IMG/VR virus record: IMGVR_UViG_3300047551_001827
Location: 1 to 33,164 of that record
Length of the DNA stretch: 33,164 bases
DNA from: a virus
Direction: 5' to 3' (one strand)
The notes under the pieces were generated by a model. The model was not told the DNA's origin and searched no databases. It saw nothing but the letters and a program-made list of their open reading frames with translations. Both the position numbers and the translations under genes were made by a program. Below are positions 21,268-33,012 of the stretch, piece by piece. Position 1 is the stretch's first letter, and the number at the start of each line of letters is the position of its first letter.

Positions 21268-21285
21268 TTTTTCTTTTAATTAAAA

Positions 21286-21313
21286 AGAAAGGAGAGCATT
21301 AGCTCTCCTTTCT
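21286..21313 (-). terminator. Terminator between peptidase and helicase units, abutting a promoter
   Basis: On the - strand AGAAAGGAGAGC, loop TAAT, GCTCTCCTTTCT, then TTTTTAATT: a perfect 12-bp stem with a U-tract. The -7 box TATATTTG ends 1 nt before its left arm, so transcripts from that promoter start within or at the edge of the hairpin. Confidence 0.88.
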
Positions 21314-21314
21314 T

Positions 21315-21346
21315 CAAATATACAAAACAAACTTAAATATGCAAAA
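21315..21346 (-). promoter_or_regulatory. Bacteroidota-type promoter for the SF2 helicase unit
   Basis: On the - strand TTTTG (ending 21342), a 19-nt spacer and TATATTTG (21322-21315) are a full -33/-7 match. A second -7-like box TAAGTTTG (21335-21328) lies just upstream without a -33 partner. The helicase ATG is 48 nt downstream, past the hairpin. Confidence 0.78.
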
Positions 21347-21358
21347 TAGATTTAAAAT

Positions 21359-22648
21359 TTAATCTAATAAGTCTGACTTAGTGTCAAACCAGTCTTCGGG
21401 TACATAATAATAAGAACCGCAATCTTCACAAGCTACTGTTCCGTTAATGTCTTCTACAATGTGTTCACTGAAACAGCAAGGACAATATCCATCCATTAGA
21501 CATTCTTCTACTTCCTTGTCTGTAACATCAATAGTTCCATCAGAAAAGATATGACGATAGTCTTTGTTCTCCTTGAGTTCTGTGTTTACAGTAAACGAGT
21601 TATTGTAACTTAAATTATCATAAACGTCATAGAACTCATCATAGCGATCATAATAAGTACTTTTAGTTTTGTAACTACTTCCGTAATCAATGCTCATAGC
21701 TCTGTGAAACCACTTTGTTCCGCCAAGCTGTACAAGACACTCATAACCAAAGTTAATAGAGTTCTCTAAAGCTTGAATAGAAGTGATCTCTTGATCAGAA
21801 TGCTCATCAAAATAGCCGGCACCGATATTACAACCGATACAATTTACTCCGCTAAGCTTTACGATTTCGCCTACGTCAGTAAAACTACCAGTACTTTCTA
21901 TTACGTGATACTTGTTCATTAGACCAGCAGCTGCATGTACAAACTCTGAACTACAAGTGTGAACTCCATTAGTTCTTGTGATTAGTTCTAACCCATTGTA
22001 AGAGTTGCGATCCATTTGAAAGATCATAGAACAATCCGCAAAGAACAGAGGATCAGCTTGTTTAGAACCTACGGCACCAATCTCTTCATCCTTGAAGAAG
22101 CCTAGTTTAATCGTATCTAAACGATCAAGCATCATCAAAGCAAAGAGATTACCATTCTTATCATCAAAGCCTACACCACACTGAAGACCAGTATCCATAT
22201 CCATACCATAAACCCATTTCTCATTTCTTTCGATTTTAAGATTAGGAGTATAGTCTTGATTGATGTCAGTATGACACACGACACAAGGATACAAATCAGC
22301 CTCACCTTTAACAACATAGATATTTCCATAGTGATCTACGGATATTTCTAGTCCTGGTTTCTGCTTAAGATAATCAAGTAGCCAAGCTACATAACGATCT
22401 TGATGTTGGGTTTTACTTGGACTCTGCTTATAAAGCAAAGTATAAAATAGATCCCAGTCTATCTTAATTTCGTTATCTAGTTTAGGAAACTCAGGTTTTT
22501 GGCTACTTTTATAGTAGCTGTTATAATATGAACTCATTGTTGTTGATTGGTTGGATTGTGTAACTTTCGTTGGTTGTACTGCTTTCGTTGATTGCTTGAT
22601 TTGCTTGGTTTTCTTGTATCTTGCTTTCTTCTTTCGTTTTCTGGACAT
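21359..22648 (-). CDS. M20/M42-like metallopeptidase with C-terminal zinc ribbon
   Basis: 429 aa. All ligands of a two-zinc clan-MH peptidase can be read: HTD (H126, D128), GFDDKNG (D162 bridging), DEEIG (E188/E189), MD (D213) and the distal YFDEHS (H283). The C-terminus adds a zinc ribbon (C389, C391/C392, C407, C410). The first 37 residues are Lys-rich (SRKRKKKARYKK) and overprint the end of the 608-aa gene; an ATG at 22537 (MSSYYNSYY) gives a 392-aa form with only 17 nt overlap, but the A-rich leader favours 22648. Clan-MH enzymes trim peptides or remove acyl groups; the phage substrate is unknown. It forms a two-gene unit with the 608-aa protein. Confidence 0.72.
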   Translation of the reverse strand: MSRKRKKKARYKKTKQIKQSTKAVQPTKVTQSNQSTTMSSYYNSYYKSSQKPEFPKLDNEIKIDWDLFYTLLYKQSPSKTQHQDRYVAWLLDYLKQKPGLEISVDHYGNIYVVKGEADLYPCVVCHTDINQDYTPNLKIERNEKWVYGMDMDTGLQCGVGFDDKNGNLFALMMLDRLDTIKLGFFKDEEIGAVGSKQADPLFFADCSMIFQMDRNSYNGLELITRTNGVHTCSSEFVHAAAGLMNKYHVIESTGSFTDVGEIVKLSGVNCIGCNIGAGYFDEHSDQEITSIQALENSINFGYECLVQLGGTKWFHRAMSIDYGSSYKTKSTYYDRYDEFYDVYDNLSYNNSFTVNTELKENKDYRHIFSDGTIDVTDKEVEECLMDGYCPCCFSEHIVEDINGTVACEDCGSYYYVPEDWFDTKSDLLD

Positions 22649-24347
22649 TTTCTCTTAATTTAACTTGTTCTAATAATTCATAGTAACGTTCTGACTCGGC
22701 TTCAACATATTCTCCTTCAATATATTCAATATCTTCAGAGTCTTTGTGATACCATTCTCCGTTTACTTCTACTGTGTAATCTCCGGTAAACTCATACCAC
22801 TGACCTTCGTGTCTAACTGCATAGTCGCAAATATCATCGTCTGTGTAATAGTTGCCTTCATAACTTTCAACTACATCGTCATTATGGGCATAATCTCCAT
22901 TATGAAGTTCTGTTACGTCATCTACGTGATAATATGCTTGTACATACTCACACCAAACAGCACTATCGCTAATAATACACTCGTCATCGTTTGTATGAGT
23001 ACAACAGTTAGAACACATGTACTCGCCTCTATAACGACCCATAGTAATTTCGTATAGACTGTCTGAGTTTTCATAACTTCCGCAATAGCTACATTCGCTG
23101 TTATCAGTATTACCTTCTGCATCTGTAAGCTCTTTGTCATAACTACTATTGCAATCATTAGACAAACCTCTGCCTGTATCTAGATATTTGAAAGTATCCA
23201 TATAAGGATAAGTGTCAAAATCTGTATGCTTTAGAGGTATAAACATATCTTTGCCTTTATTGTAACAATCATGGTAAGCTTCTAGTCTAGACCTCATAGC
23301 GATTTTGGTATTTTCGTCTATTGCATAGATTCTATCGTGCCATCTTTCAGTTTCACTTATGTTCCAAATCAAAGATCTAGCTGCAACTTTATCTTTCTTT
23401 AAGAGAATTGCAAGACTAATCTTGTCTGGATTTGCACAATAAATACCTAGATAAGGCTGACAATAAGAATAACGCATACAACTGCTACCTAACTCGCCAC
23501 TTTGCTGATAATAATTATCTTCGTGATAAGCCCAGCGAATCTTTTCTCCGCTAACTTCTTCAAAGATTAGATCACCAAGCTCACCGCACTCTTTAAAAGA
23601 TTCTAATTTGTAAAGAGAAACAAAATGTTCTAAGTCCTTAAAAGTAAATCTGTTTTCAAAGTCAAGAATAATCCTACGAATAATCTTACCTATAGAGCTA
23701 TGATAACGCTTATTAGGATTCCAAAAGTCTTCTTCTAAGTTTACTCCCATCTTTTCAAACATAGCTCCTCTAACACTGCCTTGAAGCATATAACGAATAA
23801 ATAGTTTAGATCCAATATAGGCATTTGGTCTACTATATCCTACAGCTCTAGCTATAATGTTATGGCGTTGTGCTGTTGCTTCAACAATAGGATAGATTGC
23901 TTCAACAAAGTCACGGATTCTAGACTCTATCAATTCTATGTTACTAATCTCAGACTCTTTAAAATACATAAAGTCTTGATAAATAGATATTGTATCAGTG
24001 TTTAAGGTTTGGTATCCGTGATTAAGAAAAACTTCTGCTGTAGTGCTATCGTTCTCTACTTGAGGAGGCCAATCTGAATCATGACCACTAAACATTTCAA
24101 AGCCTGCAGGATTAATATCGCAAGTAAATTGATTTAGTTTATAAATCTTTCTTTCTTCGTTTGTAATCCTTTCTATTCTGGGAATATCCAAATAACTAAT
24201 GTAAGAGGGATTGTCTCGGCTTATACCAATATAATTGATATTAAGTCCTTCAATCTCTTGTTCATTCAATTCTACTAACGCTTTAGCAATAGGAGAATCT
24301 ATTCTGTTAAGTTTGTCAATCAGTACTTCGTTTATTACTAATTTCAT
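22521..24347 (-). CDS. CMRY-motif phage protein with Cys clusters and C-terminal short repeats, 608 aa
   Basis: Three parts can be seen. Residues 1-270 are mixed alpha/beta. Residues 285-345 carry ELGSSCMRYSY, NPDKISLAILLKKD and ARSLIWNISE...HDRIYAI, a pattern shared by large phage proteins of unknown function (S-C-M-R-Y, then N-P-x-x-V-x-L-x-V-L, then A-R-x-L-x-W). Residues 415-470 hold CxxC-type clusters (CSYC, CSNCC), and 470-550 hold about five repeats of roughly 15 residues opening G-x-[WY]-Y and rich in Asp (YYHVDDVTE, GDYAHNDDV, GNYYTDDDI). The Gln/Asn-rich tail overprints the peptidase start. C290 may be reactive; that is inference. Confidence 0.62.
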   Translation of the reverse strand: MKLVINEVLIDKLNRIDSPIAKALVELNEQEIEGLNINYIGISRDNPSYISYLDIPRIERITNEERKIYKLNQFTCDINPAGFEMFSGHDSDWPPQVENDSTTAEVFLNHGYQTLNTDTISIYQDFMYFKESEISNIELIESRIRDFVEAIYPIVEATAQRHNIIARAVGYSRPNAYIGSKLFIRYMLQGSVRGAMFEKMGVNLEEDFWNPNKRYHSSIGKIIRRIILDFENRFTFKDLEHFVSLYKLESFKECGELGDLIFEEVSGEKIRWAYHEDNYYQQSGELGSSCMRYSYCQPYLGIYCANPDKISLAILLKKDKVAARSLIWNISETERWHDRIYAIDENTKIAMRSRLEAYHDCYNKGKDMFIPLKHTDFDTYPYMDTFKYLDTGRGLSNDCNSSYDKELTDAEGNTDNSECSYCGSYENSDSLYEITMGRYRGEYMCSNCCTHTNDDECIISDSAVWCEYVQAYYHVDDVTELHNGDYAHNDDVVESYEGNYYTDDDICDYAVRHEGQWYEFTGDYTVEVNGEWYHKDSEDIEYIEGEYVEAESERYYELLEQVKLRENVQKTKEESKIQENQANQAINESSTTNESYTIQPINNNEFIL

Positions 24348-24418
24348 AATTTTGGTTTTTTAATTAATTTTTAATTGGTTTTTTTCTTTGAGTTCTTGGT
24401 TTTTGTTTAAAATAAAAA

Positions 24419-24440
24419 GGGGAGCCATCTCTGACTCCCC
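24419..24440 (-). terminator. Terminator upstream of the 608-aa/peptidase unit
   Basis: On the - strand GGGGAGUC, a 6-nt loop, GGCUCCCC (one U-G wobble) and TTTTTATTTT. It ends the transcript of the 55-aa gene. The motif TAGTGTTTG sits just before the stem, an imperfect -7 (one extra base). Confidence 0.8.
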
Positions 24441-24464
24441 TCAAACACTATGAAAAATCACAAC

Positions 24465-27490: not shown

Positions 27491-27697
27491 TTAATTTTTG
27501 TTTTTTCTTTCATCTATATAGCTGATTATAAATCCTACTGCTACAATAAGATTCATTCCTATTGAAGTTAAGATTTCTGTTAAATCGCTATATACGTTCA
27601 TAGTTAAGTGTACATGTCCTACTACCCAGAATGGAATGGATAAGTTTTGACTTATCCAAACCACTAGGTAGCGTAACAAGTGTATAAGTTCTTTCAT
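27491..27697 (-). CDS. Small membrane protein, 68 aa
   Basis: One or two membrane segments: LIHLLRYLVVWIS and a clear helix GMNLIVAVGFIISYID, followed by a basic tail ERKNKN. It overlaps the SPL-like gene stop by 1 nt. Function unknown. Confidence 0.55.
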   Translation of the reverse strand: MKELIHLLRYLVVWISQNLSIPFWVVGHVHLTMNVYSDLTEILTSIGMNLIVAVGFIISYIDERKNKN

Positions 27698-28575
27698 TAG
27701 AAAATATATCTAATAGTGTTCCAAAGAATAATTTCATCGTGTAGTTCTGTCCACTGATCAATGTAACCCGCTTTTAGGCGGTGTTTGTAGCGGATATTTT
27801 CGCCACCGTACTCTGATATTTTATTTTCTTGTATTTCAGGTCGCCAAAGCAAATGTTCGCCAGGAATATCGTGCTTTAAGTTAAACCAATGTTTCTGCTC
27901 ATTATGAGTTAGAAAGATGACTTCTGCTTTAACTTTATCTTTATACTCAGGTTTGACTGCACGGTCTAATTGCATAAAGAGTTCTTTGTATGTATCTGTC
28001 CAGTTTTTTTCATAAATAACTGGACTAAAATTTACATGCACATCGTAGCCAGCTTCTATAAAACTGTTTATTGCCTCCATACGATTAAGTATAGGAGTAG
28101 TATTAGGCTCTAATAAATCCGCATAAGATTGTGGCATAAGACTAAATCTAATTCTAATCTTACCTTGGGGGTTGTACTCAAGTAAATTTTTATTTACATA
28201 TTTGGTTGCAAATGAACCCATAGCCCTTGGATGGTCTTTAAAGAAATTGAAAATACGTTTCCAATCGTAAAATTTCGCATGCAAACAAAAGTCTTCATTA
28301 CAAGAAATATCATAAGTTACTAATGACTCGTGAGTTTGATTAGGCTTATCCACAACCGCAAACATAGCGTGATTATTTATAGCCGTCAAAATATCTCCTA
28401 TGTTAGTTGCAACAGTTAATCCTTCTGGTTTATGGCGTTTCATATAACAGTAAGAACAGTTATAGAGACAACCATAACCAAAAGAAGGACTAATAAAATC
28501 TGTAGAACGACCTGACTGTCTAATAAGCATTGACTTACGATTGATGTGTTCAACCATACTTCCTTTTGTTTCCAT
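27697..28575 (-). CDS. Radical SAM protein of the spore photoproduct lyase family
   Basis: 292 aa. SPSFGYGCLYNCSYCYMKRH carries the radical SAM cluster motif C36-x3-C40-x2-C43 with the flanks seen in SPL-like proteins (G-CxxxCxYCY). Downstream strands FATKYVNKNLLEY, IRIRFSLMPQS and GYDVHVNFSPVIYEKNW fit the partial TIM barrel. SPL enzymes repair UV-induced thymine dimers in spores; homologues in non-sporing bacteria and phages are thought to repair UV photoproducts or act elsewhere. The match is to the family; repair activity is inference. With Ung and AlkB it would be a third repair chemistry. Confidence 0.78.
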   Translation of the reverse strand: METKGSMVEHINRKSMLIRQSGRSTDFISPSFGYGCLYNCSYCYMKRHKPEGLTVATNIGDILTAINNHAMFAVVDKPNQTHESLVTYDISCNEDFCLHAKFYDWKRIFNFFKDHPRAMGSFATKYVNKNLLEYNPQGKIRIRFSLMPQSYADLLEPNTTPILNRMEAINSFIEAGYDVHVNFSPVIYEKNWTDTYKELFMQLDRAVKPEYKDKVKAEVIFLTHNEQKHWFNLKHDIPGEHLLWRPEIQENKISEYGGENIRYKHRLKAGYIDQWTELHDEIILWNTIRYIF

Positions 28576-31908: not shown

Positions 31909-33012
31909 TTAATAAGGTAATACTTCTTCGGTTATTGTAGCCCATTCTTCAACAGTTTTAGGTGTAGGGTTTAGACTTTCAATCCAATTTTTCATTTGAT
32001 CTCTTAAATCTTGTGGCGAAGGATTGTTACACTTGCCTGACAATTGATTAAATTCAAATCCGTTTTGAAATAAACCTTTGTGGTGGTTTATTCCCAAAGT
32101 ATAATTAGATCCTTGGTAATTAACACTAACTACAATAAAAGATTGAGAAAGAATACTGTTCCAATAGTTTGTGTAAACACAATGGTGCATCATTCTTCCT
32201 TCTTGATAAACTTCTTTTTGTGATTTAAGAAGTCTGCAACCTTCTGGAAGATTAAGATTTAACTTTTCAAGCCATTCAAGAGGTTCATCAGACAAATCTT
32301 CTGATTCTAAATCCATCAGTTGAAGAGTAAAGTTGTTGTGTTCTTCTTCAATTCGTTTTGTAGACCAATTAAAATCTATTTTAGATTCTAAAATAATTGC
32401 TTGGTCCATCATGTCAAACAAACTACTGTTATAGGCTCCGTTTTCAGCAAAATAAAGAAGAAAGTGGTCAAAGTTCTTTGCAACTTTAATACCTTTCAAG
32501 AAAAGAGTTTTGGTAAAGTGTCCTGAATGATTATTAATGGCTTTTAAGAAAAACGCAGGAGAACCTTGAACTCTGTAAGCTTTCAAAATTGCTTTGGCTA
32601 AATCAGTAGGATTAGTAATCTTTCCTGCAATCACTTTTCCAAGAATAGCTGGTGTAACATAATTAAAATACACTGTATGAAACCATTCTTGTCCTAAAGC
32701 TTTAAAGAATTCATAATTAACCGGAAATTCATTTAGTTTTTTACCAAACCAAATCTTCATCTTACCTTTTGGATCAACAGTAAATCCGCTTTTCTTACCT
32801 TTTTTAAGAAAATAAACTTTACCTTTTGAGACACGGTATTCCGTGTTAGAGTAATGGATAGTTCCATCTTCTCTTTTTAGAATAGAAGAAACAAAACAAC
32901 CTACGCCTTGTATCTTCTTTGAATACGCTAAATTTTTCTTTACTCCTTCAGGCATAGCAAGAAACTCTTGCCACTCAGAATAAATTTTCTGTAATTCAAT
33001 TCTTTGTTCCAT
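31909..33012 (-). CDS. PcfJ-like protein, 367 aa
   Basis: The C-terminal third has the PcfJ signature: LLKSQKEVYQEGRMMHHCVYTNYW (H276, H277, C278), then SFIVVSVNYQGSNYTLGIN and the terminal FNQLSGKCNNPSP. The N-terminal part is lysine-rich and beta-rich with no clear domain. PcfJ proteins occur on conjugative plasmids and phages; their activity is not known. The family match is moderate. Confidence 0.7.
   Translation of the reverse strand: MEQRIELQKIYSEWQEFLAMPEGVKKNLAYSKKIQGVGCFVSSILKREDGTIHYSNTEYRVSKGKVYFLKKGKKSGFTVDPKGKMKIWFGKKLNEFPVNYEFFKALGQEWFHTVYFNYVTPAILGKVIAGKITNPTDLAKAILKAYRVQGSPAFFLKAINNHSGHFTKTLFLKGIKVAKNFDHFLLYFAENGAYNSSLFDMMDQAIILESKIDFNWSTKRIEEEHNNFTLQLMDLESEDLSDEPLEWLEKLNLNLPEGCRLLKSQKEVYQEGRMMHHCVYTNYWNSILSQSFIVVSVNYQGSNYTLGINHHKGLFQNGFEFNQLSGKCNNPSPQDLRDQMKNWIESLNPTPKTVEEWATITEEVLPY

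Follow-up and report, generated by a model that had tools for sequence, protein, structure and literature searches.

Why should a phage keep, as an overlapping pair, one gene for a two-metal peptidase and another for a protein built around a Ser-Cys-Met motif (hereafter the SCM protein)? The question arises from the minus strand of a viral record of 33,164 bases (IMG/VR record IMGVR_UViG_3300047551_001827), which was analysed whole and is called the window below. A first reading, made from the sequence alone, had described the two genes as an overlapping unit with strong terminators on both sides and had taken them for a dedicated phage system that processes proteins or peptides; the labels that such genes currently bear are 'hypothetical' for the one and just 'peptidase' for the other. 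We find that a functional linkage of the SCM protein and the peptidase is well supported, and that the co-occurrence of the two genes speaks strongly for a dedicated phage unit of two genes with a metallopeptidase at its centre; the two almost certainly act jointly during infection. The likeliest role, put forward tentatively, is the modification and trimming of peptides or protein N-termini while the host cell is infected.

Co-occurrence of the two genes

The layout described by the sequence-only reading was recovered in full: the two open reading frames share 128 nucleotides, and both flanking hairpins have folding energies far below those of their shuffles (Table 1). An in-frame ATG at 22538 provides an alternative start for the peptidase, with which an overlap with the SCM gene remains, and the longer peptidase frame is kept in close relatives (loci L001 and L002).

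That reading had made its case depend on whether the two genes co-occur in other phages, and they do. Viral contigs were scanned with peptidase patterns only, which yielded 63 loci, and an SCM profile was then applied to these. An SCM gene was present in every peptidase-centred locus having enough flank, and it adjoined the peptidase gene directly in all but one, a megaphage-type locus in which it lies 4-5 kb off. With all scans pooled there were 63 distinct adjacent pairs, separated by gaps of -137 to +53 nucleotides; the SCM gene comes first in 57 and the peptidase gene in 6, and the order changed at least three times on the peptidase tree. As a control, the genes flanking 38 distinct loci were clustered by blastp: the peptidases formed one cluster (38 loci) and the SCM proteins another (36 loci), and besides the pair no neighbour family that might hint at function recurred in more than 5 of the 38 loci.

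A scan from the SCM side, which used narrower alignments, the full SCM alignment being short of conserved blocks, found a peptidase within 5 kb in 36 of 54 loci (not deduplicated). The dependence is thus asymmetric, in that the peptidase implies the SCM protein, and the SCM protein often, but not always, implies the peptidase. No fused SCM-peptidase protein was found among the loci examined. In a collection of bacterial and archaeal genomes, where pattern scans reach close relatives only, the SCM patterns found no relative and the peptidase patterns only a 5-kb contig of a metagenome-assembled genome that carries the pair and is probably phage. At loci L125, L127 and L142, three to four SCM genes stand in tandem with no peptidase detected nearby.

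The pair is broadly distributed, over phages of many bacteria that are not related to one another. It corresponds to gp038-gp037 of Cellulophaga phage phi38:1 and is also found in Vibrio phage OWB, Pectobacterium phage PPWS1, Shigella phage Buco, Pseudomonas phage C171 and Bradyrhizobium phage BDU-MI-1. Records matching the two Buco genes are equally numerous for peptidase and SCM protein in phages of Klebsiella (231/231), Vibrio (42/42), Escherichia (10/10) and Shigella (4/4); for Pectobacterium there are 51 peptidase records and, at the sensitivity of this search, no SCM record, the SCM protein of PPWS1 having been recognised by eye. Autographiviral SCM proteins were placed in the family by an SCM...R...PYLDG pattern together with a weak hhalign match (E 2.5e-4, probability 43%), and Foldseek comparisons with models of the Buco, KpV48, DE17 and Nobby proteins (E 5e-11 to 4e-7) point to the same membership. 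In the three autographiviral genomes read, the gene order is that of the window and the pair lies ahead of the primase gene.

Adjacency is not the only form that the association takes. In Thermus phage P74-26, the one of ten Thermus records on which this result rests, the peptidase (gp54) and the SCM protein (gp1; hhalign E 3e-14) are unlinked, being encoded about 29 kb apart. In megaphages of 630-735 kb, both families are amplified, to 4-8 peptidases and 7-17 SCM proteins per genome (peptidase/SCM copies 8/14 in LR756504, 5/17 in LR756501, 4/7 in LR756502 and 5/8 in LR745206), and the main ligand motifs are present in most of the 22 megaphage peptidases whose motifs were checked. In one cassette of a 735-kb phage (L010, 555-7197), three successive SCM genes are followed directly by a peptidase-like gene and then by one more SCM gene, and some megaphage proteins of both families terminate in DnaJ-like CxxC arrays (L011, L015, L164).

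The peptidase and the SCM protein

Judged by its sequence, the peptidase is a clan-MH two-metal enzyme nearest to the PepT and M42 aminopeptidases, to which a zinc ribbon has been added. The window protein matches phrog_4191 ('peptidase') at E 1e-37 over residues 66-363 and carries the clan-MH set of two-metal ligands (HxD, D, EE, D, H) and the general-base glutamate. In an alignment of 36 relatives, most of which are only 25-33% identical to the window protein, H126, D128, D162, D163, E188, E189, D213 and H283 are invariant, which we take, from what is known of clan MH, to include the metal ligands and the general base. In the ribbon, C389, C407 and C410 are invariant and C392 nearly so among the same relatives, and a C..C-x-C..[CH] pattern occurs in 59 of 62 paired peptidases; the intact ligands and the ribbon are as the sequence-only reading had them.

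Profile searches, which that reading had proposed for both proteins, were informative for the peptidase and gave nothing useful for the SCM protein. Against PDB, the peptidase family profile reached the M42 aminopeptidase MJ0555 (E 5e-7) and PepT (E 4e-6); among the 36 members, the PepT-like NCBIfam model TIGR01883 is matched by 28 and Pfam M42 by 26, and M28 and M20 also match subsets. The window protein itself has no NCBIfam match at E 1e-3, the curated PepT model included, and its match to Pfam Peptidase_M20 is weak (13.9 bits, below the curated gathering score of 24.6). From H126 to H283 there are about 160 residues, and only 70 of these separate D213 from H283, which is too short for the lid insert of PepT; the sizes of the PepT lid/dimerisation domain and of the M42 insert domain are general knowledge.

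Peptidase genes of some relatives are interrupted. In that of L029 (6914-8004), a group I intron (Rfam RF00028, E 4e-16) bearing a LAGLIDADG-like endonuclease frame lies directly behind the codons for the DEEIG active-site residues, and in that of L006 (4745-5998), an insert with a LAGLIDADG-like frame and no Rfam match separates the codons of the two metal-site Asp residues (GFD|DK); these are two separate insertions at active-site codons. In Pseudomonas phage C171 (L095, 5254-6056), the peptidase gene is annotated in two pieces (gp21 and gp22), possibly through frameshift or decay.

For the SCM protein of the window, no Pfam or PHROG model gave a convincing match, and family profile searches against PDB, Pfam and PADLOC were equally unhelpful; some members match PHROGs, but only families of unknown function, and the PADLOC anti-phage defence profiles have no match at E 0.1 to the window or Buco proteins. 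The family is nonetheless recognisable by its core. Across 41 relatives Y274, S289, C290, M291, R324, W328, D338, Y341, P381 and D384 are invariant, and the Ser-Cys-Met motif recurs in the autographiviral, Bradyrhizobium and Thermus phage homologues. The AlphaFold model of the core (predicted local distance difference test score, pLDDT, 89; predicted template-modelling score 0.77) follows a small separate N-terminal domain and has the order b1-a1-a2-b2-b3-b4-a3-b5, which fits the GNAT order in both the full-length and the core model. Foldseek searches of PDB with these two models returned the GNAT superfamily as best matches, FemX first, with MprF, the aminoacyl-phosphatidylglycerol (aPG) synthase A-PGS and ATE1 among the ranks listed. 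A GNAT-like fold of the core is, as far as such models go, fairly supported.

C-terminal to the core, the Cys clusters and acidic repeats described by the sequence-only reading were both recovered. The CxxC motifs at 419 and 445 form a C4 cluster that is probably a zinc knuckle, and G-x-[YW]-[YV] repeats lie at residues 498, 515, 530 and 545, four in the tail where shuffles give 0.3; in the AlphaFold model they appear as short strands (pLDDT about 80-91). The C-terminal parts of SCM proteins vary widely, from acidic repeats to DnaJ-like CxxC arrays and other sequences, and the tails are acidic (aspartate plus glutamate averaging 24% over 60 tails), often with CxxC pairs. The GenBank labels of SCM homologues conflict (L090, 3237-4961), including a 'putative GIY-YIG endonuclease' note, 'putative structural protein' and 'peptidase', and look like misannotations.

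Table 1. Positions in the window of the two genes, their flanking hairpins and their main sequence features
Feature	Position	Strand	Basis
SCM (CMRY) gene	22521..24347	-	608 residues, 5' member of the pair; open reading frame, homologue beside a peptidase in 63 distinct loci
Clan-MH metallopeptidase gene	21359..22648	-	429 residues; phrog_4191 and PDB profile matches
Terminator hairpin 5' of the pair	24417..24442	-	T-run after hairpin; -20.2 kcal/mol, z -4.3
Terminator hairpin 3' of the pair	21284..21315	-	T-run after hairpin; -22.8 kcal/mol, z -5.9
Predicted GNAT-like core, residues 212-405, with conserved R214, SCM, Y303, RxxxW, DRxY, PYxD	23133..23714	-	AlphaFold, Foldseek, invariant columns
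Ser-Cys-Met motif, residues 289-291	23475..23483	-	Invariant in 41 relatives
C4 cysteine cluster, CSYC 419-422 and CSNC 445-448	23004..23093	-	Sequence motifs
Acidic short-strand repeats, G-x-[YW]-[YV], about residues 471-550	22698..22937	-	Repeat positions and predicted strands
Metal-site segment H126xD128 ... D162D163 ... E188E189 ... D213 ... H283	21800..22273	-	Invariant in 36-row alignment
C-terminal zinc ribbon C389-x2-C392 ... C407-x2-C410	21419..21484	-	Cysteine conservation

Elsewhere on the minus strand, the window encodes a radical-SAM protein resembling spore photoproduct lyase (27697-28575; Pfam SPL, E 6e-23) and a PcfJ-like protein (31909-33012; PF14284) whose HHCV..Y motif is superficially like the SCM motif. 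Kinship of the SCM core with PcfJ, an idea taken from this motif, was not supported: hhalign of the SCM family alignment against the single PcfJ protein of the window gave nothing.

What the pair may do

The reading that we favour, the likeliest of those considered though short of even odds, is that the two genes make up a conserved and translationally coupled unit with which the phage modifies and trims peptides or the N-termini of proteins during infection, probably at an early stage when the host is being taken over, with an aminopeptidase and an SCM transferase working on the same substrates. The peptidase would be a two-metal clan-MH aminopeptidase trimming peptides or protein N-termini; the SCM core, as a divergent GNAT fold, would transfer an acyl group or, given its resemblance to FemX, MprF and ATE1, an aminoacyl group to the substrates of the peptidase; and the putative zinc knuckle and the acidic repeats would choose the target. 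Cleavage at N-termini, catalysis by the SCM protein, the group transferred, the substrate, the timing and the use of a common substrate by both proteins are what we infer. Early timing is supported by the position ahead of primase in the autographiviruses, and the fact that SCM proteins exceed peptidases in number and have diversified in megaphages suggests that the SCM protein sets specificity. The sequence-only reading had offered the second protein as a substrate, an inhibitor or a partner; it missed the predicted GNAT-like core, in view of which a passive substrate is less likely than an enzyme or a subunit for recognition.

Several points weigh against this module of transferase and aminopeptidase. 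The top GNAT-like matches have E values of only 0.0035-0.02 and query template-modelling scores (TM) of 0.25-0.39, all below 0.5, so that the assignment is remote, and the full-length and core models derive from overlapping alignments and hence are not independent. The family alignment has no coenzyme A (CoA) pyrophosphate loop [QR]xxGx[GA] after beta4, that is, after DRxY; with such weak E values, low TM and no CoA loop, the GNAT-like call is no proof of acetyltransferase activity. The model contains a single GNAT-like domain where Fem enzymes have two in tandem, and a catalytic residue common to the SCM core and known aminoacyl transferases is so far hypothetical. Further, 18 of the 54 SCM-centred loci lack a peptidase within 5 kb, and when 17 contigs of these remaining loci were searched, 5 had a peptidase elsewhere and 12, perhaps fragments, had none, so that SCM proteins may have uses independent of the peptidase.

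If the SCM core were a GNAT fold without catalysis, it could serve as an adaptor whose variable C-terminal modules bind peptides or host proteins and present them to the peptidase or control it, a possibility to be taken seriously even though we consider it somewhat doubtful. The outnumbering of peptidases by SCM proteins in each megaphage, C-terminal parts that differ as widely as those of specificity subunits would, the missing CoA loop and the translational coupling of the genes are all consistent with such an adaptor. Against it, very diverged sequences agree in every one of the core residues S, C, M, R, W, D and Y, and the autographiviral homologues still have SCM, R and PYxD, a pattern that suits an active site better; in addition, some SCM arrays occur without a detected peptidase. 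As it stands, the evidence does not tell transferase and binding adaptor apart, and our preference for the former is slight. At the other extreme, the SCM family might be a new class of aminoacyl-tRNA-dependent (Fem/ATE1-like) transferase, by which the phage tags proteins or peptides, of the host or its own, with amino acids and the zinc aminopeptidase edits or reads out the tag; we regard this as unlikely, and, if true, it would be a phage-run cycle of tagging and trimming that has spread from small Klebsiella phages to 735-kb megaphages.

The remaining explanations are less probable still. PepT and M42 enzymes, the nearest characterised relatives, are general peptide aminopeptidases, and the peptidase might do no more than break short peptides down to amino acids that the phage reuses in making its proteins, with the SCM protein as a partner for folding or stability; we find such salvage improbable, since it explains neither why SCM proteins have diversified and multiplied to as many as 17 copies nor why the pair lies ahead of the replication genes in autographiviruses. 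Chemistry like that of LysW, in which the acidic zinc-binding part of the SCM protein would carry an amino acid or metabolite that the GNAT-like core attaches and the M20-like enzyme later releases, is suggested by the acidic tails, often with CxxC pairs, beside an M20-clan hydrolase and by two peptidase members that match the [LysW]-lysine hydrolase model (best E 1e-6); but PepT-like matches are far commoner (28 of 36) and no neighbour gene family recurs nearby, and we hold this chemistry to be very improbable. That two unrelated genes stand side by side only as passive hitchhikers is scarcely credible: gene order is indeed inherited within close clades, and related phages contribute many of the loci, but the reversed order arose more than once, the genes co-occur unlinked in P74-26 and are co-amplified in megaphages, and no other neighbour is conserved.

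Whichever of these applies, the pair is retained by sequenced phages of Klebsiella, Vibrio, Pectobacterium and Cellulophaga, which number in the hundreds, and by environmental viral contigs, and it accounts for more than 20 genes in the largest phages; such wide retention and multiplication imply that it must matter to infection. Once the two genes are viewed as a single module and the SCM half has a candidate fold, their function becomes directly testable in tractable phages such as phi38:1 and P74-26.

Comparison with known systems

In the literature and databases searched, we could find no known system to which the pair corresponds, although each half touches known families (PepT/M42-like and GNAT-like). 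No description of the pair was found in the open-access literature on the KP34 and PhiM1 genera, jumbo phages and polyvalent proteins, which leaves its absence unproven. In the genus descriptions, KP34p10-p11 and PhiM1_09-10 appear as conserved 'hypothetical' and 'putative peptidase' genes, with no function given beyond 'putative peptidase' (PMC4411677, PMC6115819), and the PhiM1-like pair is explicitly placed in the early region, ahead of primase (PMC6115819). The sequence-only reading had held that such peptidases are not standard phage parts, a view to be amended for KP34-like and PhiM1-like phages, where the peptidase and the gene preceding it are conserved genes ahead of primase (PMC4411677, PMC6115819). 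These pairs consist of the same genes as that of the window, the SCM motif being common to both and phrog_4191 matching the window peptidase, but the three autographiviral peptidases read are without the C-terminal zinc ribbon.

By analogy, the pair resembles LysW and LysK in joining an acidic zinc-binding protein to an M20-clan hydrolase. LysW is a tiny stand-alone amino-group carrier that is served by an ATP-grasp ligase and paired with the M20 hydrolase LysK, whereas no ATP-grasp ligase recurs beside the SCM and peptidase genes. The aminoacyl-tRNA-dependent enzymes of GNAT fold (FemX, MprF and the other aPG synthases, and ATE1) rank with the structures that the SCM core matches best by fold, but they have no detectable sequence similarity to it, TM stays below 0.5, and the SCM protein has one GNAT-like domain only. 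The phage peptidase has the same metal ligands and general-base glutamate as PepT (M20B) and M42; it has no room for the lid/dimerisation domain of the former or the insert domain of the latter and, relative to both, the window enzyme has gained its C-terminal zinc ribbon.

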